Source: Morinoia aosen (taxonomy: Eukaryota; Arthropoda; Malacostraca; Amphipoda; Talitridae). Taken from it: 64,000 nucleotides of DNA. Where the stretch lies: assembly GCA_030386875.1 (NCBI GenBank), contig CM059562.1, positions 20,327,360 to 20,391,359 on the forward strand, written 5' to 3'. The position numbers and the translations under genes were made by a program. The notes beneath the pieces are model-generated. The model made no database searches, was not told where the DNA came from, and worked only from the letters and a program-made list of their open reading frames with translations. This document shows, piece by piece, positions 2,605-62,500 of the stretch (position 1 is the first letter of the stretch; every line of letters begins with the position of its first letter).

Positions 2605-2970
2605 GTTAGCGATTAGTGGCCCCTCAGGGGTATAAAATTTTGGAATATATGTTACAATTAGCACTCCTGAAGTCCCGAAGATATGAGGTCCCGAGCTGAA
2701 AGTTTAGTAGGCTTACTTTTTTTTGATATTATGTATAAATATTTGTTTTTTCCTATGAATCTTCTTTTCTTGGTTTATAACTGTCCCGTTTTTCAATACC
2801 TTCTACTTTTTCACCCTTTGTCTGATATTATAAACTACTTTCTATCTTGTTTCTATGCCCAGATTAGTGGGAGTCCCCTCGTTCATAGATTCTCCGTTCC
2901 TTTAATTCTACAGTAAATGGCACTTTCTCTATTGGGAACACTTTTGTTGTGGCTAGGCAGGCGTACATTG
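2605..2970 (+). repeat. SINE-like family, copy in + orientation
   Basis: This is a diverged copy of the ~360-bp family seen in the opposite orientation at 12.2-22 kb and 57-59.5 kb. It begins near CCCCTCAGGGG, keeps the GAGGTCCCGAGCTGAAAGTT block and a pyrimidine-rich body, and ends near the GTGGCTAGGCAGGCG block, equivalent to the GGGAGGC end of other copies. It is the only clearly full-length copy in this orientation. I found no target-site duplication. Confidence 0.7.
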
Positions 2971-5380
2971 ACTGCTTCTTTAATTTAATATGTCGAAAAT
3001 CTAAATTTGGTGATGAGAAATGTCATAGTCTCCGCTGGAGACGTTAGGAAATGAGCTGTGGTTGTTCTTTGTTTGAAGTCTTGGGTAATTTATTACTGTG
3101 TCACACTTGTGTAGCTGTAATTTATGTCTCAATTATTGAGAGCGGTCGGTTTATTATCTCGAGCTATTTATATTATTGTATTTATTTATTGCTTCTAGCG
3201 ATAATTGTCAGTCGCTCTGAACGCTGGTCTGTTGGCCAATTTGGGGCAGGATTTGTTTGAGAAGTCTTGTTGATTCCCTGCTCAGTATGGCTTACAATGA
3301 TAAGAAGTGAGGTCATATTTTCAGTTTTTTTGCTAGCTTCCTTGATTATTGTTAGTTTGGGTATTTTTTGTGACCAGTATCGAGATGGAAACATACCAGC
3401 AGACATCTGGAGGCAAAAAGTATAGCATGCTGGTTGGCGGTGTTCGTCGGTGATGTACATTGTGTCCTCCATCCTGTTCGAAAGAAATGTCGTACTGTTA
3501 GAAATTTCATTGTCACGGTGATGTCCCTCTCTTTACAACACGTCCACATCGGCAGCACTTGATCACATCAGATGTGCACCGAGCGCTCTCGCTTAATAAA
3601 CCTTCTAATTCTTCTCTTTCTAGGGAGGCCATGCAAGGACAATTTTGCTCACGTAATTCATCTGCTCTTTTGCATTTCACTTTTTCATTTTTACAGAAAA
3701 GAATATGCAACAATTACGTGAGAAACTAAAATATAGCTTAATTTAATGAAACGATCATATACTTACATATTTTCAAATGATTTTTATGGTATTGACGTTT
3801 GCACATTAATTTACGGTCAACAGATTATTTCATGCTCAGCTCTTGCTCTGTAATATGTTTGGAAGGTTCCCCTCAAAAGATTGTTGGGCTGGTGCTCCAG
3901 AGATTCTGTTCCGACTAGTATTCTTGTTTATCTCAGTTTGTGCTGTATGAACTCGTATAGAAGGTTTTGCCGACTTTTATTAAGCCACTCAAACTACAAT
4001 TGTTTCGTTGGCAAAGAATCCAGCAGTAGATAGTGTCTAGTTTCTACAACACGTTTGAGGCCTATGATGCCGTTTGAAGTTCGCGCCGTAGCCTATCTCA
4101 TGATCTCTTTTTTAAATAGTCTGTTGCTCTTCGTTATTTATTTTCCATTTACGTTAATGTAACGTTCAACATTCAGATATTTTTGCAGATCTATTCGTCC
4201 CTGATTTTAAAGTTGCGTTGTTTAAGTGGAAGAAAGTTTGCGTTTTTTATGTACCGCTGTGGAGGATGGAGATTTTATGTTATAAAATTATTCTCAAAGG
4301 TGATGCATTTATGAGGTAGATTTGAACACTATCCAGTGCTGTCGTGTCCGATTTGATTTTCCATGTTAAGAATATCTTTTGTATATTTTGTGTCTGGTTT
4401 AGTCAATAAATTTTATAGGTTATTTTATGCCATCTGTTTATTCCTTCGGTATGTATGATACATCGTCAACACCTACGATTTTATATTTATTGCGTGCATT
4501 TGATTGTATGATCAATATTTTTCTTACAGGCTTTGTAGATATGAGTTAGTTTTTGGTAAGAAACTATCACCTGGTAACTATTTCTAGCCTGTGCAACATT
4601 TTACATTATCATTGTCACCGTACTATTTATGTAGGAGCTGTTTTTGCAATTTTTTTTTACTTAACCCCGTTTTATAACTTCTTAAACGTTCAATCCAATT
4701 ACTCCTAACTGCGCGATATTTGCAGTGGATGTTTGTGACGCTGACGAACTGCAGCACCTCGCATAAAATTGCGCTTCTCGATGGCTGAAACTTGATTAAC
4801 GCGATGATTTCTCCCTGGATTGCATCACATCGAAGAATATAAAAAATATTTTTTGTGAATTACAAATATCTGTCAATGTCATTGCGTTATTTAATGCTGG
4901 AAACCTAGCCCCTTTACTCATGGTGCTTTGATGTTTTCATTAATTAAAACAATTACTACTCGCCAAAAGCAAAATTTAAAATTTTCGGGTTAGGTAACGT
5001 TGAATTAAGTAAGATTAGGTTTGTAAAGGGTAGATTAGTTAGGTTTTGTTTGGTACAAATTCAACATTCTTAGGTAGCTGCACAGAGGCAATGGTCGCCA
5101 GTTGTCCCTGAAACGCCGGGCAAACTTCTGCTACGGACTTGGCTTCAAATTTTCAACGCATCTACCGGAATGGTTTGAAAGGAAATATTTTTTGTCGCAA
5201 AGCTCGTCTTTTAAATTCGATAAATTTTCATTCATTAGTAAATCGCTTCCGACGAATAATATGAGTACTCTGTTCACGTCTAGCAATGTAACGAAAGATT
5301 GGCTACATTTTCAAAAGAAATACATTTTTATTGTAATGAATTTTAGTCTAAGGAAATAATCAGCAGAGTTATTTATCACG
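2971..5380. other. intergenic, no feature seen
   Basis: AT-rich sequence. Short open frames occur but show no recognisable domain or splice context. TTAGGTT-like words near 4985-5050 are scattered, not tandem. Confidence 0.4.
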
Positions 5381-5424
5381 TGAGTAGTAGTAGTGAGTAG
5401 TAGTAGTGAGTAGTAGTAGTAGTA
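5381..5424. repeat. short tandem repeat, (GAGTAGTAGTAGT)-type
   Basis: Three consecutive units mix GAG and TAG triplets. Confidence 0.85.
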
Positions 5425-8800: not shown

Positions 8801-8994
8801 TCCAAGGCTGTCAGAGCCTCGAAAGCTTCCCAGTCAGCTCGTTTAAGTAAGTAGTGAGGCTCCGAGTTAAAAGGGAGGTAGGTGGGGAAAGTCACCACCA
8901 CTGGAAAGTGATCACTTCCATGTGCGTCATCCATGACAGTCCACCGAGCATCTGGGTAACAGTATATGGTAATGTTTGCTGACTGTATCGTTCG
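5821..8994 (-). CDS. LINE ORF2 fragment: endonuclease tail, reverse transcriptase, RNase H, zinc-knuckle-like tail
   Basis: The first Met is at 8934, but the frame extends to 8994 and holds the end of an AP-endonuclease domain (W-T-V, then GSDHFP at residues 6-11 from that Met). A reverse transcriptase follows at about residues 250-530: motif GPDGIHYK, QFGFR, GVPQGSVIS and the catalytic YVDD at about 465-468. RNase H type I occupies about 755-890, with YTDGS, SAELIA, FSDSKAA and GNDRADELA supplying the acidic catalytic residues. Near the C-terminus is a Cys/His pattern (CDRC, then H and C) common in arthropod LINEs. The protein would copy the element's RNA at a nicked target and remove RNA from the hybrid. 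Without its endonuclease the copy should not be autonomous. RNase H supports the I group; the exact clade needs a tree. Confidence 0.93.
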   Translation of the reverse strand, partial: RTIQSANITIYCYPDARWTVMDDAHGSDHFPVVVTFPTYLPFNSEPHYLLKRADWEAFEALTALEDDEDQTSVDEALERFTSTIRTAASIAIPRSKGGKVNHRVPWWSDECAQANFERKRALRRYQRSHNLADKILYQRARARAQFVKDTARKQSWQRYVSTLNADTPTPKIWQRIQKMRGRSGHALPCLTDNGEITMNQDRVASLLAEHFADVSSGRHYTPDFQIIKQRHEQSHLNFASDEQYPYNSPITYLELYHALRQCKNTSPGPDGIHYKMLKKMHSSAITYLLHLYNKIWTTHVYPTEWQSATVLAFLKPNKPSTEASSYRPIALTSCVGKVLEKIINIRLMRFLEAGDHLSPVQFGFRSLRGTTDALLRLQNHIVKERAQGRHTVCVFFDLRKAYDTAWRYGILEQLHKIGVRGHMAMYVREFIRERRFRVRVGTRFSALMTQNEGVPQGSVISCTLFLLAMDAITKDLPRHVSFSLYVDDFMLYASSRYLPALTRRVQEAINRIGAWAGKRGFSFSVEKTVALHVQPRRTNEPTPELFLGDRLVNVSPTVSFLGMLFDNKLSWRPHIQALKGRCSKALNLLKCLSRLTWGADRTTMLRLYRATVRAKIDYGCVVYQSASPSCLSLLGPIHNSALRLCTGAFRTSPVMSLLVDCGEPALQLRRVQLTLQYVVRLGQLPFTATWNSVMEGVRGRELFPYYIPSSTDYEALAEMMQLPSFKVERAPTLEEPTWQIPIQTFCPGPQYPKKEMMTISILRHIFQDHLHSDHEGAFHIYTDGSKTDDAVGCAAVFDGGVVEERLLPETSIYSAELIAIRAVLRMIEERPASGSYVVFSDSKAALQSLRSYNSTHPIISGIMSSLLRLASSPKLVTLCWVPGHVDVRGNDRADELARNAATSAANPTNTRVPARDYYSIIKAALIQLWQRQWENTQDNKLRKIKNSVRAWPSSACRNRRVEVLCRLRIGHTRLTHGHLMERRPAPLCDRCLVPLSVQHILVECLHFSDVRSRYYPGLQGADSDFVLCKMLGEPTRGRFNHWRLIGYLSDSSLLNKL

Positions 8995-10845: not shown

Positions 10846-11094
10846 ACTCTCTCTTTCGCCAAGCGTCTTATCCATGCAGGAACCCCCCTCAACCCGAACA
10901 TCAAGGATTGGTTTCTCATTAAAGTTTTTAACAATTCGTGAGTCATAATTTCAAAGAACGTCGGTCACAATTGGATTGCGCCCACTCTATTACATTGATC
11001 GTTATAAATTACCGAATACATTTACGTCTTTCACGTATTCCATCAGATAATAAATTAGCCACACAAGCTTCACCCAGTAACTGGTCGAAGTAAT

Positions 11095-11240
11095 CAGTCT
11101 CTTGTGTGTTGTAGCGCATCAAACTCCACCATAACATGCTTCACTGTCAGGACTGCTACTCCACACCATCCGCATGCAGGTCTTTGTCTAAGTACTTCCG
11201 GGTCCAAGAGGTAACTGTGGGTTAGTGATAACAGAGAGTA
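11095..11240 (-). pseudogene. ORF2 C-terminal tail remnant
   Basis: The minus-strand translation contains LTHSYLLDPE, then RPACGWCG, then VKHVMVE. This lines up with LTHGHLMERRPAPLCDRC and VQHILVEC of the intact ORF2, including the Cys-x2-Cys, His and following acidic residue. One expected Cys reads as Phe and a stop lies just downstream. Confidence 0.65.
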
Positions 11241-11319
11241 AACTGGGAAACTGTAGAAACACTTGAATTACGGAATACTTTGGTTTGATGAAGATTGCTT
11301 TAGCAACTTCCTCTACATT

Positions 11320-12008
11320 TTATTGGGCCTGAAGTCCAGCCTTTAATTCTTCTGTATCAGCTATGTCGAAGTCAGTGATGTAGATGAGGCCTACTGAACG
11401 GTTGAATCGTTCAAACTCCGCTGTCAGGCACGGTGAACCTTCTACGCACGTTAGATCGGCAATTCTCTCCGCCTGGACTGCAGTTAGCACCTTCACCATA
11501 ATCATCATCTCTCGGTTTATTCTGAGAATGTTTTTTGGATTCAAGCCAGTTACTTCTTCAATTATTTTAAGGATGTCAAGACGATTCACCGTCCACTTCT
11601 TTCCAGTGCCGAAAGTGACAGAGAAGTACATAGGAAAGTACTTTTCCTCGGTCAGCACTAAAGAGACGTATTTCCTTTTCTCATAGCTTTTCTGTTACCT
11701 GGTCCAGATACTTTCGGTTCCGTCGGAGTGCTGGATTGCGCCAACAACACCGCTTTTTCGATTTCTGACAATTGCCTCTCAATCTCGGTAATGTCGCTGG
11801 CACTCAGGTCAGCGAGCTTGCTTCTTCTGCTTTCTGCACTAATTCCATTGAGCATCGAATTGATTGCTTCTTCACTCCTTTTGGTAGGCACTCTCTTGCT
11901 CACTCGTTCCCTCTCTTCGAAAGAACCTCCTTCGTCTCCCTCATTGCACGACCGATCTTGTGTGTCTTCGATTCCTCTTTGATCAGGATCCGTCGAACAT
12001 TCTTACTT
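11320..12008 (-). pseudogene. LINE ORF1 (gag-like) remnant, frameshifted
   Basis: Two abutting frames make up the remnant. The first (12008-11658) is hydrophilic, with ITEIERQLSEIEKA suggesting a short coiled coil. The second (11658-11320) contains VTFGTGKKWTV, ILRINREMMIMVK, LTAEFERFNRSVGLIYI and then acidic residues. The second part resembles the RNA-binding middle of arthropod I/Jockey-type ORF1 proteins, which coat the element's RNA. The frame changes near 11658. No CCHC knuckles are visible, because the sequence passes into ORF2 C-terminal sequence where they would be expected. The ORF1 assignment rests on this resemblance and on position. Confidence 0.55.
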
Positions 12009-12166
12009 TTTATTTACCTTTCGAATTTCTTGTTTAAGGAGTGGGTCCCCTTGATAAATCAAGGAGGCTAGTTTTAGTCCTACTTTTAACAGAACAGTTC
12101 TTCTAAATAAATACCCTAAACTAAAAATACGAAAACCCAGATGCTAGTGGGCGCCCCCTCGTTGGT

Positions 12167-12550
12167 TCTACTCACTGACAGTTTATTAGTTTATTAGTTA
12201 GTTTAAGCCTCCCTATCCTCAACAATGAGATGTAAAGAGAGGAAGGAAGAAGGCACCATTTAGTATGGAGTTAAGGGAACGTGGAATCTATGCAGAAAGG
12301 GCACAGAAACAGAAAGCTAAGAAAGAAGTTCATGAAACAAGAAAAAGTTGAAGAAGAAAGTGGTAGGCGGTGAAAAACAGGACAGCAGTGAACCGAAAAA
12401 AAGATGGTCCGTAACACAACAAAACCTATTCTATTTTAACAAAAGAAAGCCTACCTAACCTTTAGCTCGGGCCCTCACATTGTCCCCCTGGGAGCGCTAG
12501 TTCCCATAGATACAATAGTTGTATCCCCCTGAGGGGTCTACTCACTGACA
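12167..12550 (-). repeat. SINE-like family copy 1 with 14-bp target duplication
   Basis: A 356-bp body (12181-12536) is flanked by perfect TCTACTCACTGACA repeats at 12167-12180 and 12537-12550. On the minus strand it starts CCCCTCAGG and ends GGGAGGCTTAAAC, followed by a tail of AATAAACT-like repeats. Long target duplications plus a tail indicate retroposition. Confidence 0.85.
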
Positions 12551-12631
12551 ACAGTCCTTTTACAAAACTTTATGAACATGTTATCAATTTATATAAACAC
12601 TGTGTAATGAGTTAGAATTCCAAGAGGGTAT

Positions 12632-12650
12632 ACTAACAGTACCATTATTA

Positions 12651-12712
<62 letters not shown>

Positions 12713-13069
12713 AGAAAGTTTTAGCCTCCCTTTACCACGACAAAGATGCTCTAAGAGAAGAAGGATGAAGGCACCATTTAGTATGGAGTTGAAGGAACGC
12801 GGAATCTATGCACAAGGTGCATAGAAACAGTAAGCTTAGAAAGAAGTTCATGAAAGAAGAAAAAGTTGAAGAAGAAAGTAGTAGGTGCTGAAAAACAGGA
12901 CAGCAGTGAACCGAAAAAAGATGGTCCGTAACAAAACAATAGCTTATTCCATTTAAATAAAAAGGAGGCCATTCTAACCCCTAGATCGGGCCCACACATA
13001 ATTCCCCTGGGAGCGCTAATTCCCATAGATACAATAGTTGTATCCTCCTGAGGGGACTAACAGTACCAT
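12632..13069 (-). repeat. SINE-like family copy 2 with 14-bp target duplication and (TAA)n tail
   Basis: Perfect ACTAACAGTACCAT repeats flank the copy at 12632-12645 and 13056-13069. The body matches copy 1. The tail on the minus strand is the long TAA run at 12646-12710, so the microsatellite belongs to the insertion. Confidence 0.88.
12646..12710. repeat. (TTA)n microsatellite, 3' tail of copy 2
   Basis: About 20 TTA triplets with one interruption, lying inside the target duplications of copy 2. Confidence 0.9.
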
Positions 13070-13221
13070 CTCGTTAAGGTGTGGGCAGGTTGGAATACTC
13101 GTTATGTGCGAGTAGTCCATATCAAATCCTTGTTCTCTTCACGATACACAAATAACACAATTCGGCACCAGCAAACGTGACAAAGGGAACACGTAAAAAT
13201 TTTGCATTATATTATTATTAT

Positions 13222-13600
13222 ACTAGTTCATTTAATACTCCCTACCCACGACAAATGCAATCTCAAGAGCGCGAAAAGAAAGGACCATTTAGTATGAACT
13301 GGAGAAAACGGAGAACCTATGCAGAAAGTGTGTTCTTACACTGAACACTCTACGCATAGCTACAGCAAATTAAGAAGGGAGAGGAAGAAAAGACAGCAAA
13401 GAAGGCATCCAGACAAGAAGAATCAAAGAGAGCACAAAAGATTGAAATCCCATAGGCCTATCTATGGATGCGGTCACTAAATAGTCGCTCCACAGAAGCG
13501 TCAGTCTCACAAACCTAACAAACAAGAATGATCCGTAACCAAACAAAAAACATCTACTCGTATTTCGATCAAAGGAACTCTCAGCTCAGGACCTCGCAAA
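13222..13600 (-). repeat. SINE-like family copy 3, diverged
   Basis: It keeps the CTCCCTACCCACGACAAA, ACCATTTAGTATGAA and CTCAGCTCAGGACCTCGCA blocks. The middle is heavily changed and contains an unrelated insertion-like stretch around 13340-13375. Confidence 0.7.
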
Positions 13601-13649
13601 ATCATCTTACATCTGAACAATTCCATGTACATTCTGAAGAAAAAATCTT

Positions 13650-14033
13650 ACTAAATAGGAAAGATTAGATTAAATATTAGTTTAAGCCTCCCTAACTGCG
13701 AAAAAAAAAGCATTTTGACGAGAGGAAGGAGGAAGGCACCATTTAGCATAAATTTAAGGGAACGCAGAATCTATGCCGAAAGGGCATAGAAACAGTAAGC
13801 TGAGAAAGAAGTTTATTAAGCAAGATAAAAGTGGAAGAAAAAAAGTAGTAAAGTGCTGAAAAACAGGACATCAGTGAACCAAAAAAAAGGTGGAAAACAA
13901 GAAAAAAAATTTTGTTTCAACAAAAAGAAGGGTTATCTAACTCTCAGCTTGGGCACTCGCACATTTCCCCCTGGAAGTGCTAATTCCCATGGATACAACA
14001 GTTGTCGCCTCCTGAGGGGGACTAAATAGGAAA
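13650..14033 (-). repeat. SINE-like family copy 4 with 13-bp target duplication
   Basis: Perfect ACTAAATAGGAAA repeats at 13650-13662 and 14021-14033 bound a 358-bp insertion. On the minus strand it starts CCCCCTCAGG and ends in an AATATTTAATCTAATC tail. This copy defines both ends of the family well. Confidence 0.88.
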
Positions 14034-15597
14034 TAGTACTCAAGACCTTTACAGTAAAAATAAGTACGATGCAGCATAACAGCTCAATAAAAAGTACTAC
14101 AATAAGCAAGAAAAAATACACAGTAATCCTATAACAACGTAACTCCCGCTAAAAAGAACATATTCTTAATGAAAGACATTAAAAGTTCTAAAACGAAGTA
14201 ATGCGAAACAATAATGATAAACAAAAAAACGTGAAATAACTTTAGATCTCGTTTCTCGACACTGACATGGCGTTTCTAACTCGGGTTGTGAGGAATCCAT
14301 TATTTTAACATTTCATGGACACAGTAAAAGAAAACTGACCGAGTGGTAGCTATCCATTGAGTATTAAAAAATTCATTAATAGCTTCGATCATTATCAGTG
14401 TCGAGAGCAGGTCGAAATCACATTATCGGAACAAATACGCTAGACAATGTTATCAATATCCCAGTCTCTTCACTATTTAAACCGTCCTTGCAATCACACT
14501 TTCAAGCCAATTCATTTTTGCAATAGTCTCATGCGTCAGTACTTACCTACACCTTCCAACGTCTTCCTTGCCTGGCATCATCTTCTTATTTACTTCGTTT
14601 TTAAGATATATTAACAGCAATTTTATTTTTATCCCCGAGTTATCGTTTTGCAGAACGCCATCGTGATCCCGAACAAGATCTCACTTGGTAGAATAAATGG
14701 ACAGATAACAAAGTTGCCAATTTCAACGGAAGCATGAAATTCGTCGGATGAGTTTACTGAGTAAAAGTTTGACATAATTAGAGGAAATGGAAAATCATAC
14801 TAACTTAAACAAATAGCCAGAGTCAATTTTGAGAAGTTCCTAAAAATGATCAGTACCTCATACCACTATTTACGTCACTAAATTCATTACGACTCTCTAC
14901 TTCGGTTCTCGAAGTTTTTAATGGGATTTTATCTAAACTAAAAATGCGATGAGGAATAACAGGAAGTGACTACTTATAACTAAGAAAAGCTAAAAGCCTG
15001 ACAGTGAAACAATTGCACTAACGTTCAATGACCACAAAGTTTGAGAACACTTCACGATGTTCTGCCTCGTACTTTTCTTACATGTGAACACAGCTACGAA
15101 GTTGCTCCACGGTAATAAGGATTACAATTCTTAGCAATGATAGCAGACTTTCTTTTCTTTGACTCAAACTTCCACCAACAAGCAAATATTAGAAAATACA
15201 AACGGGTTCGTATAACATTTGGAAAGTAATATGCCAAGAGCCTCGCACGGTCAGTGTATGATGGCGATCTATTCTTCTACACTCAAAGGATTGGTAAGAA
15301 AATGAACATTGATGTAGGTTATTTCTCTGCCCTTCAGCGCACGAGTACACCCCGACAATGGGTGCTGTAATCCATGCATGCTCTTTTGAATAATCATGAT
15401 AACCGAAAGTTCTGAATTCAATAAGAAATTAACAATTTTCATGTTGGTGAATACGCAGTACTATTCTGAAACATAACTCTTGTTAATAATCATGATTTAA
15501 AAACGAAGGAAGGTAAGAATCCACCCCCCCCCAATTAGAAGAAATTTCATTCTTGGTGAGTGAATGTCATAATTAAAGCAGTAACCAGACGTGCAAA
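14034..15597. other. intergenic, no feature seen
   Basis: AT-rich sequence without recognisable coding exons or repeats, apart from a short C-run near 15523. Confidence 0.4.
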
Positions 15598-15980
15598 ATT
15601 AGATTATAAATTAGTTTAAGCCTCCTTGACCACGAAAAGATGAACCCAAGAAGACAGGAAGGGGGAAAGCACCATTTAGTATATGGTTAAGGGAACGTGA
15701 AATCTATGCACGAAGATCTCCAGCGCATAGAAAGAGTAAGTTGAGAAGGGAGGTTATGAAACAAGATAAAAATAAAATAAAGTTAGAGGTACTGAAAAAG
15801 GACAGCAGTGAACCGAAAAAAAGATAGTATATAACCGAAAAAAAGATAGTATATAACCAAAAAAATTAGCTATTCCAATTAACAAAATGAAAGCTTACAT
15901 AACATACAGCTCAAAACATCACATTTCCCCCCTGGGAGCGCTAATTCCCACAGAGACAACAGCTGTATCCTCCTCAAAGG
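15598..15980 (-). repeat. SINE-like family copy 5
   Basis: Near full-length, from ATAAATTAGTTTAAGCCTCC to the CCTGGGAGCGCTAATTCCCA end block. It contains a private 24-bp tandem duplication of AAAGATAGTATATAACC at about 15815-15860. Confidence 0.85.
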
Positions 15981-18328
15981 TCTCAGTTCATAACCATTTA
16001 ATCAATACATGCAGACACAATAGTTTCCGCATAATACAACCATTTCAACTTTGTCGGATGCCTTCCCAAAGATTAAAAAACGTACCATCTCCCGATGAAA
16101 ACTGTTCTCAATGTGTAAATGTAGGATGTGGGTGGTATGTTATGAAGCAAGTTCTAGTTTTATTTCAACCAGGGGGTGTACTTTGCAATATTTGAGCAGC
16201 TAGCGTTTTTCCGCGAAAGAAACGATAGTTTAGAGAAAAATTGTTTGTAAGTATACATAGAAGGCATTTGAAAAATAAATCTATAAACAAAACTAACGAA
16301 GAAACATAATGAAGCATTTTTCAACGTCGTAAAGATCTCACTTCCACTGAAACAAATGCAGTCAAAATACAACCAACATTCAGATATCCCTCGCCGAATT
16401 ATAGCATCGGGCGAATGAAATAGTAACAATGTAGTAACTAAAAATACTAAAATTGTAATTTTAGGAAAAAGTCAACACTTCAATAATTCCTCTAGACTAT
16501 GAAGAGTATTATCACCGTATCTTCTAACCCAACTGAATCTTGGAGCGAAATATCCAAGAAACTAACAATTGCAGAAGGAAGAACTTATTCCAGACTACAA
16601 TCGCCCGAACCAACTACGCAAATAATCCTAATATGAAGACGGGCAAGTCATTCCCATACAAGAATAAAACACGCAAGACATACCCATGGTCTGCGTTCGT
16701 CAGCCTCAGCTGCGTGTACCTCAATCGCAAGTGAAGTCTTAACTCCGCGTTGGTAACGCTAACTTTTTACGAGCATTGAATCCGTAGGGTTTCAACACGT
16801 TAACAAACAAAATTGCATGGAAATTTTCTTGGAGACACTCAACATAAAAGTGGTAAAAACTAAACCAATCGAGGTAATATAATTAGATAAAACGATCAAC
16901 ATCAACGCAACAGTGTCAAAACTCAACTTTATTTTAACGCTAGAGCTCGATTTACCGTGAGAAAGCGAGATTCGGATTACAAACATTCCGCTTTAATACT
17001 TCACATGAATAAATCTTCTAATTGGACCACTTATGAGGCAATGCGCGGACGCGCTTCCTGTACTCTATTACGACACAAGTCAAGTTACCTCAAGTCATGT
17101 GCGCTAGTCGGTCTGGTGCACACGCTCTATCATGGTGATTAAGGCGGTTTGACAACGATACCACAAATGTTTTTCCTTTTGATGGATGTTAAGCACCAAT
17201 TTCAAGTGACACTTTTAGGTTACAGTTTTATCAGCACGATCTAAAGTTTATCAAGATACCAAAAAACACATATAAACTTCCTTTAAAATTATTTCAAGAT
17301 AGGAAATATTTTATTATTCACCTTACGAATAAATTCTGACTCGCTAATTATGTGTGTCCATAAGCAAGAAATTCCACAATGATTCAAATAATATAATGGC
17401 GTACATTTTTTCGAACTAATACCTTAATATTCATTCGTTTTCTATTGATTTGGAACACTAAACTCAGGACTATTTAACTCATGATTGCGTTTAAATACCT
17501 TCTGAGATAACAACTTGTAGCATAGAAAACAACCTCAACCAGTACTACAGAGCCCATAAACCACCAGTGAGATTTAATAACCCCCTCATCCACAATTAAC
17601 TTGCAACCCAAACCGTAACTTCATGCAAAAGAGCTAACTATGAGCACCTAAAAACGAAAATCAAACCATGAATTTTAAAAACAGAACATCAACCACCATA
17701 TTATCTCTAGCCTTTATTATAACAGTGGAGCCTTTCATCCCAGATGCAGTAACGAGAAAGCAAAAACCAAACGTTGTCACGAACACCATCAAACACACAC
17801 ACACACACAATAAAACGCATTAACAAAATTTGAAGTTTAGCTAGATGGTCCGCCTCACATTTTTTTGATCAGCTATTTTGCGGTATTCTGAGACACTCTG
17901 CAAGTGTGCCCCGAGCTACAATTCATCAAACTTACTATGAAGAAGGCAAACTGGTGCCTCAGTTACAAGTCTTATTTTCAGATCTACAAATCATATTGCA
18001 CCTAATTTGTGAGTCATTTCATGACAGGATTTTATAAGGCAGTATTTATCAACATACTCTTGTTATTGCAGTTATGCTACTTTGAGCCTCCCCATCCGAT
18101 ATCTATTCCAGTTTCTGGAGGGTGTATTCAGTTCTGCACCAAGACAGTGCCTTGCCAAGGATAGAAGCGCTATAACTGTAGCATAGCAACATGGCAGGCA
18201 ACATCTACTGCAGAGCTTGGCAATTGATGAAGAGATCAACCTAGTCATCTCTCCAAGAACTGCAGAAAAAACGCATTATTTTCGAGCGAGAGGTCAAAGG
18301 GCTGCAAGAGACACTGGCTGGAGGTGCA
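15981..18328. other. intergenic / 3' flank of the FYVE gene
   Basis: No exon is seen. There is a short (CA)n run near 17791-17808. The part next to 18329 should include the 3' UTR of the minus-strand FYVE gene. Confidence 0.4.
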
Positions 18329-18480: not shown

Positions 18481-21400
18481 CTGCACAGCGAGCACCGTGT
18501 CACTAGCGGTTCGTCCACACCATCCTGAGCTTGTCTCAATACAGTTTTCACTAGATCAAAAACTCCAAAAGTTATAGCAGTGATTGAAGGGAAATTACTC
18601 GTTATCTTTTTCAGAACGTGACTGATTTTTAGTTTTAATGACAGTGAAACATAACTACTCCAATAAGATTCCCCAGATAAAACTTAACAGAACTTATTGG
18701 ATACTCTCAAATAAGGTTATCATGTATAATGTTATCTTTAATTGAATTTATTTTCAGGAGAGTAAGCTCCAGACTCATAATAAAAAGCACACTGTAACGA
18801 TAATGCGTTTGTTATGTGTTTCAAGTGGGCCTCGAATGCTAGTGATAAAAATATTTTTACCTGCATCGGAAACATTCTAAAGATCGGATACAGTAATGAC
18901 AAGAAAGATGACCAACGTCTCAACAGTGCAATTCCTTCCACATTTATCTTATGAATGAATATGTTCTCTTCTTACAGGTCTGATGACTTCTCGGCGATAG
19001 AGCATCGTTACGCAAAAGAATTTGACCGTTTATTATCAGTTGTCCATGTTCTTCTGAAGGCCTTGAGCATCCTGTTAGTTTATTGATTTTATGGTCATGA
19101 ATTAATTCTTGTCGGTGGAAAAACTAGATGGCTCATTCAATCAAAGATGTTTTCAAGCTGAAAAAATGATAAGCCCACAAAATACTGAAATCAATTAGAT
19201 CATTAGACTACAAATTCGTTCAAGTCTCCCTCGCCCCAACAACGGTGTTCCAAAGAGAGGAAGAATGAAGATACTATTTAGTATGGAGGTAACTAAACAG
19301 GACATCTGCGTACAAGATATGTTCCACACAAGGCACGCAATGCATAAAAATGGCAAGTTAGAAAGTAAGTTTATGAAACATGAAAAAAGTTAAAGAAGAA
19401 AGTAACAGGTTCTGAAAAACAGGACAACAGTGAACCAAAAATGGATGTCTTTCAAATAAATCGCAATGAAACAATCGGCAACAAAAGAACCCGTTCAATG
19501 AGGGACCTTTACCAACATCATAGTTTCGTAAATAGTGCAGAAACCAAAGCTGAAACACTCGGGTTGGATACCGAGTTGTGTTCAGGCAAGCAACTCGCTA
19601 AAACCAACCTAAGGGGATGAAACTAGGCCAGTCTTCCGAAAATTAAAGAATGAAGCTTCATTAATGATCTATATGTTGTTCGCAATTCTCACGTAAAAGT
19701 AAGAATAACAAACCTAATTTACAGGGCTTTTTCCCCAGTGAAATAAATTTCACAGATAAGAGAGTAAGCTAGTTGGAGAATACCTGAATAACATTGCAAA
19801 AGTGTTCTGAAGATATGAACGAGGAAGGTATTATTGGTTTAGAATTAAGGGACCGGGGAATCTATGCTTAAGGTGTGTTCCCAAGCCTAGCGCACAAAAA
19901 AGCACAACTAAAAGAAATTAATGAAGCGAAGAGTTGAAGAAAGTAATAGTTGCTGAAAAAATATGGTCCGTATCAAAACAAATGAAAATATTCTTGTTCA
20001 ACAAAAAGAAGGCCTACCTAACTTCGAGCTCAGGACCTCGCATTAAGATGTGAGGAGGTCCGGAGCTAAAAGTTCGGCAGGCCTTCTGGGAGCTTCAGCA
20101 TTTGAAACAGTGGAACAAATATCATAATGAAATAACGAGTGCACAATCTGAGTGTTCTTGATGAGATATAATTTAAAGCACCATACCAGTAAGCATAAGC
20201 TTTTAGCGCCTCACCGGACTTGAAGGTGAGGACTATGCAGTTCAAGTCGTAGTCCGAGTCGGTATCAAAGAACCCCGAGTTGGGCGAGTCATCTGTGCCG
20301 CTCGACTCCAGCACATCCTCTGATTCGCTACCGCCGCGGCCCTGATACACCACACTCATTGTTACACCGTAAAAGTTTGCCTAATTTCGACTAAAGATAA
20401 AAAAATTGACTTCTTAACAGACAAATGTGATGATCAATAATTTTAATTCAATCATTTGGAGGAACAAACTTCTCCAGAACCATTTTCACTACTTAAAAAT
20501 CAGAGACAGCCCATTCAAACTGTTGCTCCTAATGAAAAGAATTGTAAGAACGACTTGAAAAGTGGCATCATTTATGAATGATCAACATGAATTGCATAAA
20601 AAGTTGTGTGAATATAAGTTGAAATTTCAACTTTTTCTTAATTTTTTTCAATTCTAAATTTTAAAGTAGCAATTTCCATTGCGCTGCAAATCAAAATTGG
20701 CTTTTTGAAAACGGCACTCAATATATAACAGGTTAACTACGACACGCAACATCTCAATAGTTAGAGCACCTTCATCATGTTCAAAAAAGCAATTCACTCA
20801 AGATAAGTTACGATTTCCAAAGAAGCACAAAGACTAAGTATAAAAACTAATACCAATTCTGAGTAGTAAAACTTATCCAGGAGCACGTGCTTTTCAACAA
20901 CGAAAACTGTCGAGGCAAAAAAAAGATCAGAAGCTTCTCTGTGGAATATTATTTGAAATTGGAAGGATAAGAATACTGTACAACCAAGCAATGTGGACTA
21001 AATGATCTGAAAGAAACTGGACCACTCGCTCTTCCAAGCTAGAAACAGACAGAAAAATTAGCACTTTGGAGTGCTTTTGAAAAAGGTACTTAGCAAACAA
21101 AAGTAAATTTAGGGTGCCCTCCATTGACATGCCAGGTTCAAAAGACGCACCCACCTTGGCAACATGCATGGCTACAAGTCTGTGGAAGGGAAGGTTAAGG
21201 CTGGAGTCCGAGCGCTGGATGAGAAGGTAGCGGTGGTCGGGAGTCAGGCGGCAACTCGACAGATTGGAACCGCTGTCCGAACTCTCGCAGTCTCCACTCA
21301 TCACTAGAATTGCACCGCTCAGTAGGGCCTGAGTGCAGCAAAAATAAGCCAGAGATTGGTGCCTTCTATTAAATATTTTGGTTATCATCTTGAGATTGAT

Positions 21401-24400
21401 AACACATAATTGCAATGGTAAAAAATTCGTTGATTTTAAAATTGGAAAATAATGCAACAAAACCCAATCAAGAGCAGGGTTAAATCATGATTATTACAAA
21501 TCCCTACAAAAAATGGGACACAAATTAGACACGTTGCTGATGTTAGCATGATAGAGCAAAGCAGTACACAAATGGCTACTATCATAATTACATATTGATA
21601 ATATAATAAAATTCTCAACACAATGGTTATAAAAATAATATTTTTGTTGACTTTGATTTAATTAGAAGTTGGTTCGAGCCTCCCTAATCACAACAAAGGT
21701 ATTCCTTAGTAAAAAGGAGGAGGGCACTATTAATATAGAATTTAAGGAACAAGAAATATATGGATGCACAAGGTGTCCTCACACAAGCACAAAAATAGTA
21801 AAATTAAAAAACCAAATTCATACAGCATAATAAAAGGTGAAAATGGAATAAATAAACAGAAAAATAACGCCAGTGAACTGAATGAGACGATTTGCAAAAA
21901 AACTACTTTGTTTCAACAAAGAAAGGCCTACCTAACATTCAGCTAGGAACTTCACATCTTTCCGTTAGCGCAAATTCCCATAGATACGTTAGTTGCATTT
22001 TTCTGAGGGATTCTGTCAGTAAATGGTACAGTAAATTCTTTAATAAAACAGGTACTCCTGTCAGAGCTTCTGTTTGCACTGAAACATACAATGGTGCATC
22101 AGAAATATAAAACAACCATGGGAATTGAAGGGAGAAATATGAAGCGACAAAAATTAACGATAGGAGTCAAAAGCAATAATTAAGTACGTAAGCTAGAGAC
22201 AATATAAATTTGCTGGAATAATCATACTAATAACTAAGGCGCTTATCTCATTAAACTTAGCAAAACACGCCCTTGCGCTACATCGCACAGCTAGTAATGC
22301 TACATATTTATATAGACAACCGGCCTTCAAGGAGTCACATCATTCATGACATTCTATGAACACACTTGCGAGAAGGGCTCAGGAATCCTATACATGACGA
22401 GAAGCATAAATATCCAGAAATAAGCTCATGAATACCTTTCACATTTAAATCATTATGCAGCAACAAGAAGCAATAATTAGACAAGATAACAATTACCTAT
22501 GTTACCAAAACATAGTCTGGCCAGCTAGCTCACTTCCACTTTGACAGGTTTTGACCTCGTGATGCATAGGTAAAATATGTTGTGCTACAGTGCAACTTCA
22601 GTCCTGACAGGACTTGTAGTTCAACAACATTGGACATTTTAGACAATTGTGGAAAACCATGAAAAAACTCATAGGTAGATGGGAAATGTGACAATAATGG
22701 TGGCTATACTGCAGACTAAGAAGTATATTTCAAATTTTTTCAAAATTTTCCCTGCATTGAAAAAACGTTAACTTTCGTTACAACCTGATATTAAGTTCCA
22801 TTAGAACAACACAAATTTTGGGAGCACTAAATCAAAGAAGAACTTGTCAAGAATAGCCGTATAAAACACAACGTATGTAGGACACACATCAGAGGTTCCC
22901 TCCTGTCTTCTCAGTTGAGCGAGTGGGTTAAGGATTAAACTTCAATCTAGCAAGACCCTGCTTCTATCCCAGTCCGGTCCCGCGGTATTATCACCAGTTA
23001 TCACCAGACCGCACCTCTTCGGTGGTGATAGCAAACAAAGAGGTTAAATGAAGAGCTCTTCTACTCACTGAACTTCCTCTAATTAGGCCATAACTCAAAC
23101 AAGAATTTTCTACACACCAATTATAAATTGGAGCGATCAATAAAGATATTTCCTTAAAAAAATCTAACTTGAAGAGGCTAAGCATATATTTGCCAGATAA
23201 GAGCAGGAAGAGACCCCCACTATGAAATTGGGGTAACTCAAGCCTGCAACCCTAAAAAGTAAACAGCCCAAGTTGGGCATCCGGAGGAGAAAAGCCCTGT
23301 ACACCAACTCCAATGAAACACACAGTCGCCCTACAAGCAATCAGGAGGATAAATGCGTAGTTAGTTCTCCTTGAGACAAAGAAAACCCACCTTGAGGTGG
23401 TGGTGGTAAAACCTGTTTTCTTGCGTGGTGGTGGTGGCGCAAGGAGAGCACATGCGCACGGGGTCGAGGAAGCACATCCGAGGCAGAGCGAGGCGTGAGT
23501 TGCAGCAGCCCGCGCAGCAGACGCGGCCGCACCGTCTGCAGTGGTGCTGGGGGAGGTATCACTGGTTTCAATAGTTGGGAGTAATACGCTTGCAGTCCTG
23601 CTCCTATAATAATTATTTACAATGGGGAATATTCTAACAAATAATACACAAATTATTGGCAGAGAATATTTCTCCTATATAATACTTTGTTACTTGCATC
23701 TTCACTTGTGAGGTTGTTCTCTCCATCTCCAGCCACACAAGTCCTCTAAACTGAATGCTTGAAGGCTACATAATGACAGTAATTTCTTAATCTTTTTACA
23801 AGTAAGGTATGTGAGTGATAAATGACATGGGATCCTAAACTTTAGCAGCAAGAGCAACTTATTTTTTCCATTAGCATTTGCTCTAAGAAAGAACTTTTTG
23901 TGTCAAGGAGGGGACAAACTCAGCATTAAGGCTTATCTGAGACTAGTTTTAGGCAGAATTCTTGTATGAACACTTACTCTTGTTCCCATTCAAGGTTATT
24001 TTGAAACTAACATTGCAATGTAATTAAAATCAAAATTAAATGCACCTCCACACTCACTGCTTTTTGAAAGCAATTGATGCCCCAATAGTCATAAAGTTTG
24101 GTGCTCTTGCAAACAGGTGTTGCTCAACATGAGAGTCATATTTTTAGGAATTTGACTTGAAGCTTGCATAGCATAAATGGATTACATAGGCAAAAATGCT
24201 GTATTTTACCCCATGTGTGTGAAGATAAAACAGCTAAAATCTTTGAAATATTAACGCAATTAAAAAATTAAACTTTAGAAATGCACTGGAAAATATGATA
24301 TTTCAACAACTCTCATGCACATTTCATCAATATCCCATTTTGAGACTGAAAAAAATCAACTCTAGTTGGCACTCATTCAACTATTGCATAAAATTGACTC

Positions 24401-34462: not shown

Positions 34463-34512
34463 CCACAGCAGATTTTGCGCAGATTCTTCTCTGAACTGTA
34501 GGAGTTGCTAAG

Positions 34513-56023: not shown

Positions 56024-57540
56024 CTGCACATGCAAAGTGTTGAGGAATATCTCTAATTTGTCGAGACATGCAAATGTTTAGCACGCTAATGCGCGTGAAA
56101 AAATTAAATGTGGTGGTTGTAACTTATAACTGAAGACAAATAACACAATATATAAACAATAAAGACAAGTACAACTTGGAAAATTTTGTGGCATCCATGA
56201 ATATAAAAGAATTTAGCTCTAAATTCCAATGTTAATATTCTGCATGACTACTTTCACGACCAACAATCCTATTCCATTAAAACATCCGCCGCATATCCAA
56301 ACTTTTTCTATGAATTACAATGCAAGAACGAAGAGTTCGTGAACGACAGTCAGTGCACATCCAAGACAATTTAAGTGCTGCAGGGGAGTTCTAAGTAATA
56401 GAAATGTAGCTCAAGCGCTGAAAACTCACTCATCCACATAAGATAATTAAGTTGCAACTATTGCGTCAATCACAAGTGTGAAGCTAAGATTATCGAGTAA
56501 CAAGAACGCTTTATAACGTCTTTGTCATTAATCTTAAGTTTCAGCAAAACCATTGCAATGCATTAAACAAATCAAGACAACCGTAAGAGGATCTGTAATT
56601 AGGGATCTGCATGGCCTTTCACTCCTCATCGAGGAAAACTCGTAACCTTTTGTGATGAAACGAGCGCGCAGACATGTGTTCTTGACAGCCCTTCTTTAAA
56701 ATTAAGAAGAAACCCAGTCATACTTTTTCGCCGAGTGCACGCATGTTTTTCACCGCCCAAGTAATTAAATCGCTTAGACGGCGAAAAACATGCATGCTCC
56801 GGCGAAAAAGTTTGACTGGGAATCAACGGTGACGCTGGACAGCAACAACAACGGTCTCGTTGCTGCAGTGCAAATCATTGATGGCATAACGCAATCTCAG
56901 GCCGAACTCTAGGAAAACGCCCACTCCAACCTCTTCTAAAATCCACTCGGGCCATAATTTGAATACAATCGTTGATAGCTAGTAGATGGAGTCGATCTCA
57001 TGAACTTCCAATTGAAATAATGTAGCAGTAACTAACTCACCGACGAAAAGAACTTTTAGCAGCCGCCTCAAATTAACGTAAAGAGATTTCGACCTATGTT
57101 TTCGCCGATGAAGACGCCTTAGCTCTGGAACTATAAGTTTTTCCCTCGAGAAGTGTTAATTTTTACCTAATATTCTAAGTGTAAGCTGTACAGTTTCTAT
57201 TTAGCTGAGCATCGATTTTATTTCGCTATGTATCAGTTAAGAGACACTTTCGAGTGAACTTGTCCGACCCAACTGAACAATTTAATGCCATGACATGACA
57301 TGACAATGTGCGTTCTAGCTGATGGCTCTACAATACGGCTCAGATCGAAGTGCGAAAGAAGGTCTGTTAAAGTACACCTCACTGGTTCCATGATATACCC
57401 GAGCACGTTTGCGGTTCTCAAGTTATCGTTAAAGATCTTCGGCTGAAAAATATCTTCTGCTTTTCAGAAGATCTTCTGCTGAAAAACTCGAACTTGCTGA
57501 ATTTAGTGCAAGTCAAAGTAAGTAACGTAGAATATATCAT
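56024..57540. other. intron or upstream region of the hAT-derived gene
   Basis: No upstream exon could be supported. Contains the hairpin at 56713-56820. Confidence 0.35.
56713..56820. repeat. inverted repeat, ~43-bp arms
   Basis: CCCAGTCATACTTTTTCGCC starts the left arm (to 56756); the right arm (56778-56820) ends GGCGAAAAAGTTTGACTGGG. Spacer about 21 bases. Could be a miniature fold-back element. Confidence 0.85.
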
Positions 57541-57755
57541 TTTATCAGTTATTTTGAACGAGCCTACCCACAACAAAGATGCTTCATCGTGATGGATGAA
57601 AGCACCATTTTGTATGGATTTAAGTGAACGAAGAATCTATGCACAAAGTGTGTTCCCACACAAGATTCCCTCAGCATAGAAACAGTGAGTTAGGAAGAAT
57701 GTTAATGAAACACGATAGAATTGAGGAAGAAAGTAGTAGGTGTTGAAATGTAAAA
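57541..57755 (-). repeat. SINE-like family copy 9 (partial)
   Basis: Keeps GAGCCTACCCACAACAAAG, GCACCATTTTGTATGG and AGTAGTAGGTGTTGAAA. The far half is missing. Confidence 0.72.
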
Positions 57756-58967
57756 ACATTCACAGCATTCATTCAATCCGCCATTCATAAGTCACATCTC
57801 AAAATAAATTGATTTATTAAAAAAGCTTGTCCGTGAAGCTAAAAAAATGTTTATTCTGCAGTTGTAACGCATTTAAATTACGACGTTATAGTCGCCAGGA
57901 GACGAAGTACATGCGTACAGTGCGCTGAACAGACTCACAGGAGGGTATGAAATTCGCGCGTCTCTACTTGAACTTGCGTTCAACTTGCCATACGTGGAAA
58001 TTCTACTACAAGCGATGCAAAAAATCGCAGAAGCCCGTCTCAACAAAAAAAAGGCAAAGAAAAGTAGTGATGAAGGGTGTGATATCCAAACGTCCACGTT
58101 CTGTCTGGCATGTAAAAAACATTATACGAGACTCGAAAGGAAATCTCAGTAGCCCGAAATTAAAGCTTCTATTTAAATGACAAAGAGAATTAGTCTCGCA
58201 ATTTTTTTCTTTTCACCCGTAAGCTGCGATTGAGTGGCAATATTATGGTAAAATAAACTCCTGAATAGCAATAGGGCTCCAGCTAATTCAAAACACGTCC
58301 CGTGGTGTCAACGGTGTTGGCATGATGATGCTAACAACTATACAAACGCAAACCTAAATTATTAGGAGACCTTCTGGGGAGAAAGATTCATTTTTCTTAT
58401 CCATTTGAAAGAATGTGTCAGACATAGAGTGAGTTGACCCAATGTTTCCTATATCTTGAGCCCCTGGACTGGGCTATATAGCAATGACTTACCATAACTG
58501 GTCTGAACAACGGCGTCAGTTTAAAAGGAATTGAATGGATGTAAATGTTTAGATCCGTTTATTTTTGGGTAGAAATTTTGCGATATTGCATGTGGTAATA
58601 ATCAATACTGCTTATGCGAGACACAAAACATTTAGAGTTCTAATATATACCTAATAGTACATTTTATTGCGTATTTTTCAATTTATGTTCGTATTTGAAG
58701 CAGGGAAGAACCGCATGCAGAACAGCTCTTGAAAGATCGAGGCCGTTGCCAGACAGATTTCAGTGAAAGTGTACAATTCTGGACGTTTTCCCGTCGGTTT
58801 GTTAAAACGTGCTAACTTTTGTCCTAAGTGACGATTTTTGACGCCCTCGTGTAATATAGGATCAACATTTAGAAAAAACTGTGTGAAGAAACCGTTCCTT
58901 ATTATGTAACTCACATGCTCGAGTGATAAAGCAAGTATCCTAACCTACTCATAGTGCAAGAAAATGC
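57756..58967. other. intergenic, no feature seen
   Basis: AT-rich. Short basic open frames (for example 57947-58180) have no recognisable domain. Confidence 0.35.
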
Positions 58968-59089: not shown

Positions 59090-59235
59090 TTCTCAGCTGA
59101 AGTAATTTCACCTAATGGCGCACCTAACGCTGGGCCCAAACAACCTCAACCATGCATCTGATATCGGTCGTATCAAAAATAATTATAGGAAATTGAATTT
59201 TTAAACACAAGCATTTGGCAGAGAAACATCACTGG

Positions 59236-59518
59236 ATTATATGTTAGTTTACGCCTCCCTACCCGCCAAAAAAAAGAACGTATCGAAGAGAGGAAGGCAC
59301 CATTTAGTATGGAGATAAGGGAATGCGGAATCTATGCAGAAGGGGCATAGAAACGGGAAGTTGAGAAAGAAGTTCATGAAATAAGATAGAAATTAAAGAA
59401 GGAAGTAGTAGGTGCTGAAAAACAGCACAGCAGTGAATCGAAAAAAAGATGGTCCTTAACATGACAAAAAACATTTTATTTCAACAAAAAGCAGGCATAC
59501 CTAACTCTCAGCTCGAGC
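59236..59518 (-). repeat. SINE-like family copy 10
   Basis: From ATGTTAGTTTACGCCTCCC to CTAACTCTCAGCTCGAGCA. Lacks the CTCAGGG end, i.e. 5'-truncated when read on the minus strand. Confidence 0.8.
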
Positions 59519-62500
59519 ATCGTTGGATATCCTATACGATTTTAAAGCCTGGTCAGCGTCGTTTCATGGGAAATCAACGATAGATTGGAGCTAACTTAAT
59601 TTCGCCCCTTCATTTCATCACAAATGGCGCGAAATCTCCGACCACTGCGATGAGGTCACGATTTCTAAATATGAGCAAGCTTGCAGATGCGGGAGCCATT
59701 AGTTAAACGCACCATGCCTTTATAGTACTGAATGTCACCAACGTACCAAGGTGGGAAAACGGCACTAAATATTAACAGAAATAAACGCAAAGAGGTCTCT
59801 TTCATGAAACAAGCTCAAAATCTTTTACATTAACTTGAAAGGACTTGTGTTCAGGTTGAGTGAGTCAATGCAATAACGAATACAAGGTGCAGGTTGAAAC
59901 TGCGTCCTGCGAACCAACAGGACGAAGCGATGAGTTCACATCTCACCTCAAGAATACAAACAAACACAACATCTGAGACATCGCTTTTTTTTCAAATAAT
60001 TTTATTTCTGTGACTTGTTACTTGTGTTCGTTGTCTCTCCCATAAGCAGCATATTATATGAATCACTTTCATATGATGGTACAGCTACAGAATCAGTTTC
60101 GCAAAGTGCAACATAAATTCAAATCAAAGACGCTACACAGTTTTGAGACTTCAAAGCAAGATGTAGGAGAGCAAAATATATTTATCATTAACCACCAAGT
60201 ATTTTTGGAATAATTTCCACAGAATACACTGTTCTTCACACCATCAATTATCATCACAGTGAATTAAATGAAGCATAATCTGGGCACTATATTTGAATAA
60301 AGACCAAGCTGCACGACGACGTCTACGCATTCTGCTAAGAGTAAGCAGAGCAGCCCACGGAGCTGGGTAAACTAAACGAAGCTGGTCGGTGATATACCGT
60401 AGACTGTTCTCAACATTGGCGTCTTGACGTGTGTCCGTGGGCTTTATGATCGATTACAAGAACCGTGGAAAGTGAATATATAATTGAGCATCAATAAGAG
60501 CTTATCATACACAACTAATTGACTTTATGAACATTATAATATGCTGACATTGACGATTATAATGCAAAGAGAGACGGTTGCTCAGTCTATCGAACGATCG
60601 AGCCATCTACGAACGCAGGATATTTCCGAGTTGAAAATGATTCTTCTCACTTCGTAGGCTAACTCAAGTGATGCAAAATTACGAATAAGAGCTGAAGGGT
60701 GAGTGACCCTTAAATACCAGGCTGTTGAAACAAACATTACAGGAATAAATAATAACAAATAATTACATTAACTGTGAAATCGAATCTTAGAACTTTACGC
60801 AACGGTAATTTCGATAGTTAATGCGATGGCGTAGAATCGACAGCGCAGTTGAGAAAACGAGGGCTTTGAAGTAGAAGTCCACCTCTCGCAACTCAACTAC
60901 GCAAGTGGTTATCAAATTTTATTTTTTCAATGTCAGAGACGGAACCCGCAAATAAAGTTGATTTACAACGCAAACTTGCACATCTCTCCTCACGCACCTC
61001 GTCATAATCACATAGCTGAACTGAAGGGAGCACAACACCCATAGAGCATCCACCACCGGTGTTTCTGGGCCTTGAAGTTGGAAAAATACAAGATGTATAC
61101 AACAGATTTTGATTACATTTTTTGCCCATTATGAGCTAAATAAATGTTAGCTGAGGGAGACCCGGATCCTTACAAAATTGCGGATAGCACGTTCTGTATT
61201 TGGTTAACAAAAGGGTATTAATACTCCCATGTAAAATTGTTTTTCAACAGGTACTAAAATGATGGAATGAGAAAGAGTAAATTATTCAAGTGATACTTGA
61301 ACGGACAAAAGAAAAAAAACGATGCAGGTGGACGCATATCTTCAACAGAATAAACGAATACCCAAGAATATAACTTACGTAACAAATTAAATATTCATTT
61401 CTAGCTCAATGAAATTTTAAAGATAGATAACGTGGGAGCCTTCTTAAATTAAAAAATCAAATTTTATCATATGAATGAAATTCAATCCAATTAATTACTT
61501 TATTTACTCATTTCCCTAACGTTTACAGAAATGAGCTGTGTCCATACTCGCTACAAATCATACGCTAAGCAGCAAAAAAGTCCGTCACTTGAACATCCTC
61601 TAATCGGAGGCGAGATGCATATAAGTAGAAGCAGCAAGGAGATACGAAGGTACGTATGCAAAGCCGTCACACAAGTTCTTGTTGTGCTGAAGATGATCTT
61701 TCAAAGACGACTAAGGCAATTACATTTTTTTTCCGTTTAGTCACGCCTCTGTGATGCGTTAGGACGCAAGGACAAGGAGACTCATCTCGTCACCTGCGTC
61801 CGTATGCCGTGTTGACGTGCGGGCCTACATTGCAAGAGAAAAAAGTTACGAACCAACATGAAGAAAATAGAATGTTCTTATTCAGAACTACGACTCGTTC
61901 GTGCTGAGTTAGACTGCACAACATGCTTTGTGTTACAGAAACGCGATCGTCTTTGATTTTTATGATACCATACATCATGAATATCTATTTCTCTGCAATG
62001 AAAACGTAAATGATAGATTTAGAGCGCGAGTTTATAGACATAAACAAACGGATATTTTCTGAAACACAAAAAGTTGGTGATGAGGCGAGTCTGGATCACG
62101 AGGAAAAACTCGGTAGGTGTAGACTACGTGCGGCTTGTGTGCATGAGCTTGTGGCCGGTATTTCCAGCATCCTGGTGAGAAGTTACGTTCTTATACAAGC
62201 TTCATGGTTACCAGGTTGGTGTTCATCTCACCAAAAATCTCTTTTATGGTGATAATCAAATTTTAGTCATAAACACGCCTTTTCTACATTTGCTAATCTT
62301 GCAGGGTTATCAGATGCTGAGCGGTCTTCAATCATGGAGAAATTCCATTTGAAATAATAAGATGTTATTTTTCAAGAAAAGGTAAATCTAGCGACTCTGA
62401 AGCACAAATAAAATGTACGCACCCTTTCATACCAACATTTTATAACTGATTGTTCTCCGACATATTTTGGACGAAACTCTAATTAATTGGAAACTCAATG

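Follow-up and report, generated by a model that had tools for sequence, protein, structure and literature searches.

The locus examined here raises two questions: how a short repeat without apparent coding function came to be present in several copies within a few kilobases, and from what source the 5' part (the head) of this repeat was derived. An earlier note on the same DNA had described the repeats as a SINE-like retroposon family. This description was followed up by computational analysis of the whole stretch of DNA, of 64 kb and referred to as the window.

The repeat family and its copies

Searching the window with a sequence-only model made from five copies identified 11 copies of one non-coding family of ~350 bp, with E values ranging from 3e-95 to 7e-17. 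The family thus comprises more copies than the earlier note had reported. The same 11 copies were recovered using nhmmer with its filters off, copy 3 being split in two pieces, and a 33-base extra piece (E 0.22) was found to adjoin copy 8. Together the copies amount to 3,761 bases, or 5.9% of the window. Copies 1-4 form a cluster at 12181-14020 in a single orientation and within 1.9 kb, with copy 5 situated 1.6 kb off, and the minus strand holds ten of the 11 copies (two-sided binomial p = 0.012, for one window only). Copies and boundaries were as the earlier note had described them, with the body that it gave for copy 4 (13663-14020) being the exact stretch between the duplications. The features of the family are as follows.

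12181..12536, minus strand: copy 1, full length, 356 bp including a short TA-rich tail (312 bits, E 3e-95), with a perfect 14-bp duplication
12167..12180: target duplication of copy 1, element 3' side, TCTACTCACTGACA, same as 12537-12550
12537..12550: target duplication of copy 1, element 5' side, equalled by 0 of 300 random placements
12646..13055, minus strand: copy 2, full length (297 bits, E 2e-90), with a perfect 14-bp duplication and a tail, (TAA)n, of ~64 bp
about 12646-12709: tail of copy 2, with a tandem array called at 12644-12709
12632..12645: target duplication of copy 2, element 3' side, ACTAACAGTACCAT, same as 13056-13069
13056..13069: target duplication of copy 2, element 5' side, equalled by 0 of 300 random placements
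13215..13603, minus strand: copy 3, old and divergent, 5' end unrecognisable (56 bits, E 7e-17), duplication score at chance
13663..14020, minus strand: copy 4, full length, 358 bp including the tail (281 bits, E 9e-86), with a perfect 13-bp duplication
13650..13662: target duplication of copy 4, element 3' side, ACTAAATAGGAAA, same as 14021-14033
14021..14033: target duplication of copy 4, element 5' side, equalled by 0 of 300 random placements
15598..15979, minus strand: copy 5, full length (261 bits, E 2e-79), no duplication detected (94 of 300 random placements as good)
59234..59532, minus strand: copy 6, 5'-truncated, model positions 51-353 (240 bits, E 5e-73), no duplication detected
19202..19486, minus strand: copy 7, old, without the 5' part, model positions 94-356 (101 bits, E 1e-30)
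19765..20044, minus strand: copy 8, old, without the 5' part, model positions 56-347 (79 bits, E 6e-24)
57538..57825, minus strand: copy 9, old, without the 5' part, model positions 92-354 (97 bits, E 2e-29)
21657..22009, minus strand: copy 10, old, full length (108 bits, E 8e-33)
2620..2980, plus strand: copy 11, old, full length, the sole copy on this strand (115 bits, E 5e-35)

A single stop-to-stop frame of at least 90 amino acids was found inside a copy (92 aa, copy 2), and a plus-strand frame of at least this length (15857-16195) overlaps copy 5. No such frame of at least 90 aa was common to several copies, in agreement with the earlier note, which had seen no ORF. In copy 5, a 22-bp piece of the element was also observed to be repeated in tandem approximately three times (15795-15865). 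An exact 22-base pattern from the 3' half of the element, the only pattern tried, gave no match in a viral contig collection, and no title on such a family was present among the matches listed from open-licence literature on SINEs, crustaceans and promoters. Most probably the family belongs to a known kind, as a new or so far unchecked member; its point of interest is the origin of the head.

Ends, tails and target duplications

On the minus strand, copies 1, 2 and 4 were found to start with CCCCTCAGG (copy 4 with one extra C) and to end with AGGGAGGCT(T/A)AAACT, followed by a TA-rich tail. Across the family, the 5' end CCCCTCAGG, exact or degenerate, is common to six of the 11 copies, while the 3' end AGGGAGGCTTAAACTAA, with at most three mismatches, is common to seven; the TA-rich tail after it varies in length, being (TAA)n of ~64 bp in copy 2 and short in copies 1, 4 and 5. 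In the window the 3' end pattern occurs seven times (0.18 expected) and the 5' end pattern five times (0.13 expected), every match lying inside a copy. Pairwise alignments of the copies, made within the window, end at most about five bases from CCCCTCAGG; extension of the body into a longer element, which the earlier note had named as contrary to its reading, was not seen within the window.

Perfect target duplications of 14, 14 and 13 bp are located at the exact element ends of copies 1, 2 and 4, respectively, and the bases just outside each duplication differ on both sides in all three. The best duplicated-flank scores were 14, 14 and 13 for these copies and 2-6 for the remaining eight; the control, consisting of 300 random 5' placements, gave a maximum score of 11 and a 99th percentile of 9, which bears out the perfect 13-14 bp direct repeats that had been reported at these copies. 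In the other eight of the 11 copies, flank scoring against random placements revealed no target duplication above chance, the best-scoring of them (copy 5) being equalled by 94 of the 300 placements. For the five copies with an uncertain 5' end (3, 6, 7, 8 and 9), the scoring was repeated with the 5' boundary set at every position from the BLAST/nhmmer start to the model start; no duplication was found, and 24-31 of 40 random placements scored equally well or higher. When the whole window was examined for exact 13-mer pairs separated by 300-600 bp, just two (4844/5183 and 6979/7477) proved unrelated to the duplications, copies or tails.

Retroposition of copies 1, 2 and 4 is well supported by their variable 13-14 bp duplications, variable low-complexity 3' tail and common ends, which back the view of the earlier note that these are not DNA transposons. 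The retroposon reading is correct for at least three copies and likely extends to all 11. The same note had also named a lack of duplications in most copies as counting against this reading; taken literally, this is what was found in the window, with eight of the 11 copies lacking a duplication and copies 1, 2 and 4 carrying one.

Two other readings of the locus were rejected on the duplications, the tail and the divergence of the copies. A DNA transposon (MITE) or Helitron remnant would likewise be short, non-coding and repetitive, but no inverted repeats of at least 30 bp were found in 11000-16000 and no shorter ones were seen by eye at the ends, while the 13-14 bp duplications are unrelated to one another and the TAA tail is variable. 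Helitrons are not known to make such target duplications, and an origin of this kind is highly improbable. Four copies in the same orientation within 1.9 kb could also suggest that the cluster at 12181-14020 is a local tandem duplication of one insertion; copies 1, 2 and 4, however, each possess a different duplication exactly at their ends and differ from each other by 15-24%, leaving this reading barely credible. As the three duplications differ from one another, the cluster is regarded as consisting of separate insertions and not of tandem duplicates.

Divergence and probable subfamilies

Raw divergence was 0.15-0.30 among copies 1, 2, 4, 5 and 6 and 0.38-0.46 among the other six copies (3 and 7-11), while comparisons across the two groups gave 0.27-0.41. 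Duplications are visible in the younger group only, where three of the five copies possess one and copies 5 and 6 do not. Six of the eight copies that lack a duplication are old, all pairs involving them being 27-46% different at aligned bases, so that such repeats would have decayed in them. A longer loop in the 3' half was identified in the older copies 3, 7, 8 and 9, and less clearly in copies 10 and 11; it is absent from copies 1, 2, 4 and 6 and partial in copy 5. This difference, along with the divergence, is read as at least two subfamilies and a long period of activity. The levels of divergence are those that an evolving source lineage would leave if it had given rise to copies at different times.

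The head of the element and Pol III signals

No tRNA was identified in the window with ARAGORN (bacterial settings), and no Rfam family reached its gathering score over the whole window. With Rfam at E values up to 10, neither a small-RNA head nor a ribozyme family was found in the region 11000-17000, which contains copies 1-5. A search for snRNA families, as in SINEU-type heads, was also negative for the copies (gathering score over the whole window, E up to 10 for copies 1-5). The earlier note had seen no tRNA, 7SL or 5S head, and this holds with both ARAGORN and Rfam. Three lax Rfam matches in 11000-17000, all far under gathering scores, were attributed to chance: STnc420 and Arthropod_7SK both lie outside the copies (the 7SK-family match, E 5.7, at 16233-16345), and CrcZ (E 5.3) covers the TAA tail of copy 2.

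With a general box consensus, A and B boxes were sought in the seven copies that are 330 bases or longer. In none of these seven of the 11 copies was an A/B-box pair clearly above dinucleotide shuffles, as 11-99 of 100 shuffles were as good (copy 1, 11; copy 2, 16; copy 4, 56; copy 5, 60; copy 11, 14; copy 10, 67; copy 3, 99). A stretch in copies 1, 2 and 5, GTTCACTGC, was found to match the B box at six of its seven specified bases. Pol III transcription is normally terminated by runs of five or more T, and runs of at least five T are present in all 11 copies, including a run of 6-8 T at position 132-137 in copies 1, 2, 4 and 5 and at the corresponding place in copy 6. Judged by the absent signals, Pol III transcription appears unlikely, since no A/B pair exceeds shuffles and T runs occur in every copy; a decayed Pol III promoter is possible, given the fit of GTTCACTGC to the B box. 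The term SINE would suit the behaviour of the family, and 'SINE-like', as used in the earlier note, stands with regard to size and retroposition. Membership among strict SINEs, which produce a Pol III transcript, is not supported by these same box and T-run results.

Folding of the element RNA was also examined. In copies 1, 2 and 4 the first 52-53 bases at the 5' end are foldable, with 10, 31 and 22 of 200 shuffles at least as stable, and the fold of the whole of copy 2 had a z of -1.41 (11 of 100 shuffles as good). Across six copies, one of the 17 pairs of the 5' fold showed two-sided change (a count reached in 288 of 500 shuffles), its covariation score was reached by 99 of 500 shuffles and its count of further pair types by 53 of 500, with 83.8% of cells paired (180 of 500 as high). 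The 5' structure outdid its own slid versions (27.6-55.3% of cells paired), which is to be expected, one of these sequences having served to derive it. A consensus fold of five copies contained 52 pairs, four of them with two-sided change in some copy, and had an unfavourable covariation term (+0.97). In the 3' half, the hairpin CTATGC...GCATAG is kept in the five younger copies, its pairs hardly varying. A structured or ribozyme 5' head thus gained no support, with neither stability relative to shuffles nor covariation backing a selected structure.

Candidate partner LINEs and comparison with known retroposons

No sequence outside the copies that possesses both element ends was identified in the window using the model, the end patterns and nhmmer. 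An I-like LINE with reverse transcriptase and RNase H was found at 5824-8994, followed by a TAC-type repeat near 5380-5424, and another LINE at 29512-30776 is followed by a TATG-type repeat near 31190. We infer that these repeats are the tails of the respective LINEs, and due to their being of TAC and TATG type, neither LINE looks like a partner of the present family. The LINE proteins appear to resemble those of decapod crustaceans.

Short retroposons without a small-RNA head have already been published, namely EhSINE1 (PMC2996970) and RIME/NARTc (PMC4035085). The cited text describes EhSINE1 of Entamoeba histolytica as having no identified small-RNA precursor, limited A/B box similarity, target duplications and dependence on a LINE, and as not being a SINE by one strict definition, according to its authors (PMC2996970). 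These authors expect it to be transcribed by Pol III despite its poor boxes (PMC2996970), which weighs against inferring a transcript other than that of Pol III from poor boxes here. As portrayed there, EhSINE1 resembles the present family in being short and non-autonomous, with no small-RNA head found, poor boxes and target duplications. It differs in its host, in having ~70 bp of its 3' end in common with a known partner LINE, and in having classes defined by the number of internal repeats (PMC2996970).

RIME and NARTc are described as truncated forms of the LINEs ingi and L1Tc (PMC4035085, PMC2996970). Like the present family, they are short and non-autonomous with a conserved 5' end, and are associated with target-primed reverse transcription (PMC4035085). 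Unlike it, they have sequence in common with a known LINE along with the Pr77 promoter/ribozyme stretch (PMC4035085), whereas the present family showed no LINE match in the window and no Rfam ribozyme family in copies 1-5. PxSE1-5 and related insect tRNA/5S SINEs are similar to the family in length (255-389 bp among the entries listed) and have tails such as (GAT)n, (TGA)n and (ATGT)n, comparable to the TAA tail here, but the source describes them as having a head from tRNA or 5S RNA that carries promoter boxes (PMC8010984), features that were not found here. By analogy, the present family would work like EhSINE1 and RIME/NARTc, and the partner LINE would decide which of these two it is closer to in origin.

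Proposed origin of the family

The copies very probably belong to a non-autonomous, non-coding, non-LTR retroposon family of ~350 bp that was moved by target-primed reverse transcription with LINE proteins. This mechanism is suggested by the common ends, the variable TA-rich 3' tail and the variable duplications. An RNA beginning at CCCC would be made from the element, the sense of which would be the minus strand for ten of the 11 copies. A LINE reverse transcriptase, acting where the target is cut by a staggered nick, would then use the 3' end of this RNA and its tail, with repair of the nick yielding the target duplication. Transcription by Pol II, or read-through from a host gene, would be more likely than transcription by Pol III, in view of the missing signals. 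LINEs of the I clade use short simple repeats instead of poly-A, and the TAA-type tail suggests, by analogy, a LINE of this habit. The head may have come from a diverged small RNA missed by the tools or from the 5' end of the LINE that acted as partner, or may have another source. Counting against the retroposon reading are the detection of duplications in just three of the 11 copies, with the younger copies 5 and 6 lacking them, the failure to find a partner LINE in the window, and the 10/11 orientation bias, which it leaves unexplained.

Two more specific forms of the retroposon explanation concern the source of the head. The family may be a short internally deleted LINE, comparable to RIME with ingi and NARTc with L1Tc, with its head being the 5' UTR of the partner and its tail the 3' UTR. 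The absent Pol III signals, the defined 5' end and the simple-repeat tail all agree with this, and trypanosomatid RIME and NARTc are precedents (PMC4035085, PMC2996970). Against it, the model and end patterns match only the 11 copies in the window, save for the 33-base piece (E 0.22), and the repeats that follow the LINEs at 5824-8994 and 29512-30776 are of TAC or TATG type, neither LINE being partner-like; a deleted LINE is entertained as a tentative, though realistic, possibility. A conventional Pol III SINE with a tRNA-derived head too diverged to recognise would differ in head and polymerase. It would fit the size, the lack of coding, the duplications, the simple-repeat tail and the six of seven B-box bases of GTTCACTGC in copies 1, 2 and 5, and most known SINEs (~84%) are reported to be tRNA-derived (PMC8010984). 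The empty tRNA and Rfam searches (with ARAGORN at bacterial settings), the 11-99 of 100 shuffles that equal the best A/B pairs, and the T runs of five or more in all 11 copies (6-8 T at 132-137 in copies 1, 2, 4 and 5) nevertheless speak against such a SINE, which is considered somewhat unlikely.

It is rather doubtful that this is an abundant and long-lived animal retroposon family of SINE size with a head from no known small RNA, a body without a LINE parent, and transcription by Pol II or read-through. If true, SINE-like elements could arise in a third way, in addition to those from Pol III genes and from deleted LINEs. SINEs are usually traced through their small-RNA heads. A dense family that lacks such a head, with 11 copies in 64 kb, would allow the transcription of short retroposons without Pol III to be studied and would also be a useful insertion marker for the host. 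Should the family turn out to be a deleted LINE, or to be in Repbase already, it would be ordinary.

Other elements of the window

A complete-looking LTR element of the BEL/Pao type was identified at 37491-45301. Its repeats (37491-38055 and 44737-45301) are 565 bp each and 98.8% identical, and its inner frames match DUF1759, Peptidase_A17/RT, DUF5641 and an integrase region. The insertion is probably recent due to this identity of the LTRs. A minus-strand frame at 20930-21484 gave a weak match to ZFYVE21_C (E 3.5e-5; 24 bits, where the cut-off is 25); copies 7, 8 and 10 of the retroposon lie at most 2 kb from this frame and are possibly in introns of that gene. With the BEL/Pao element and the weak ZFYVE21_C match, the window looks like animal DNA, BEL/Pao elements not being known outside animals.

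Three adjacent partial pieces of one LINE-like repeat, 90-95% identical, are present at 32773-36549. This repeat is interrupted by an imperfect palindrome of ~233 bp (33136-33368; 73% to its own reverse complement), while the other repeat copy at 35969-36549 runs through, an arrangement resembling a foldback or MITE insertion. Tandem repeats were also found at 31691-32089 (a 200-bp unit in two copies, 88% matches) and at 52027-52195 (a 41-bp unit in four copies, 92% matches).
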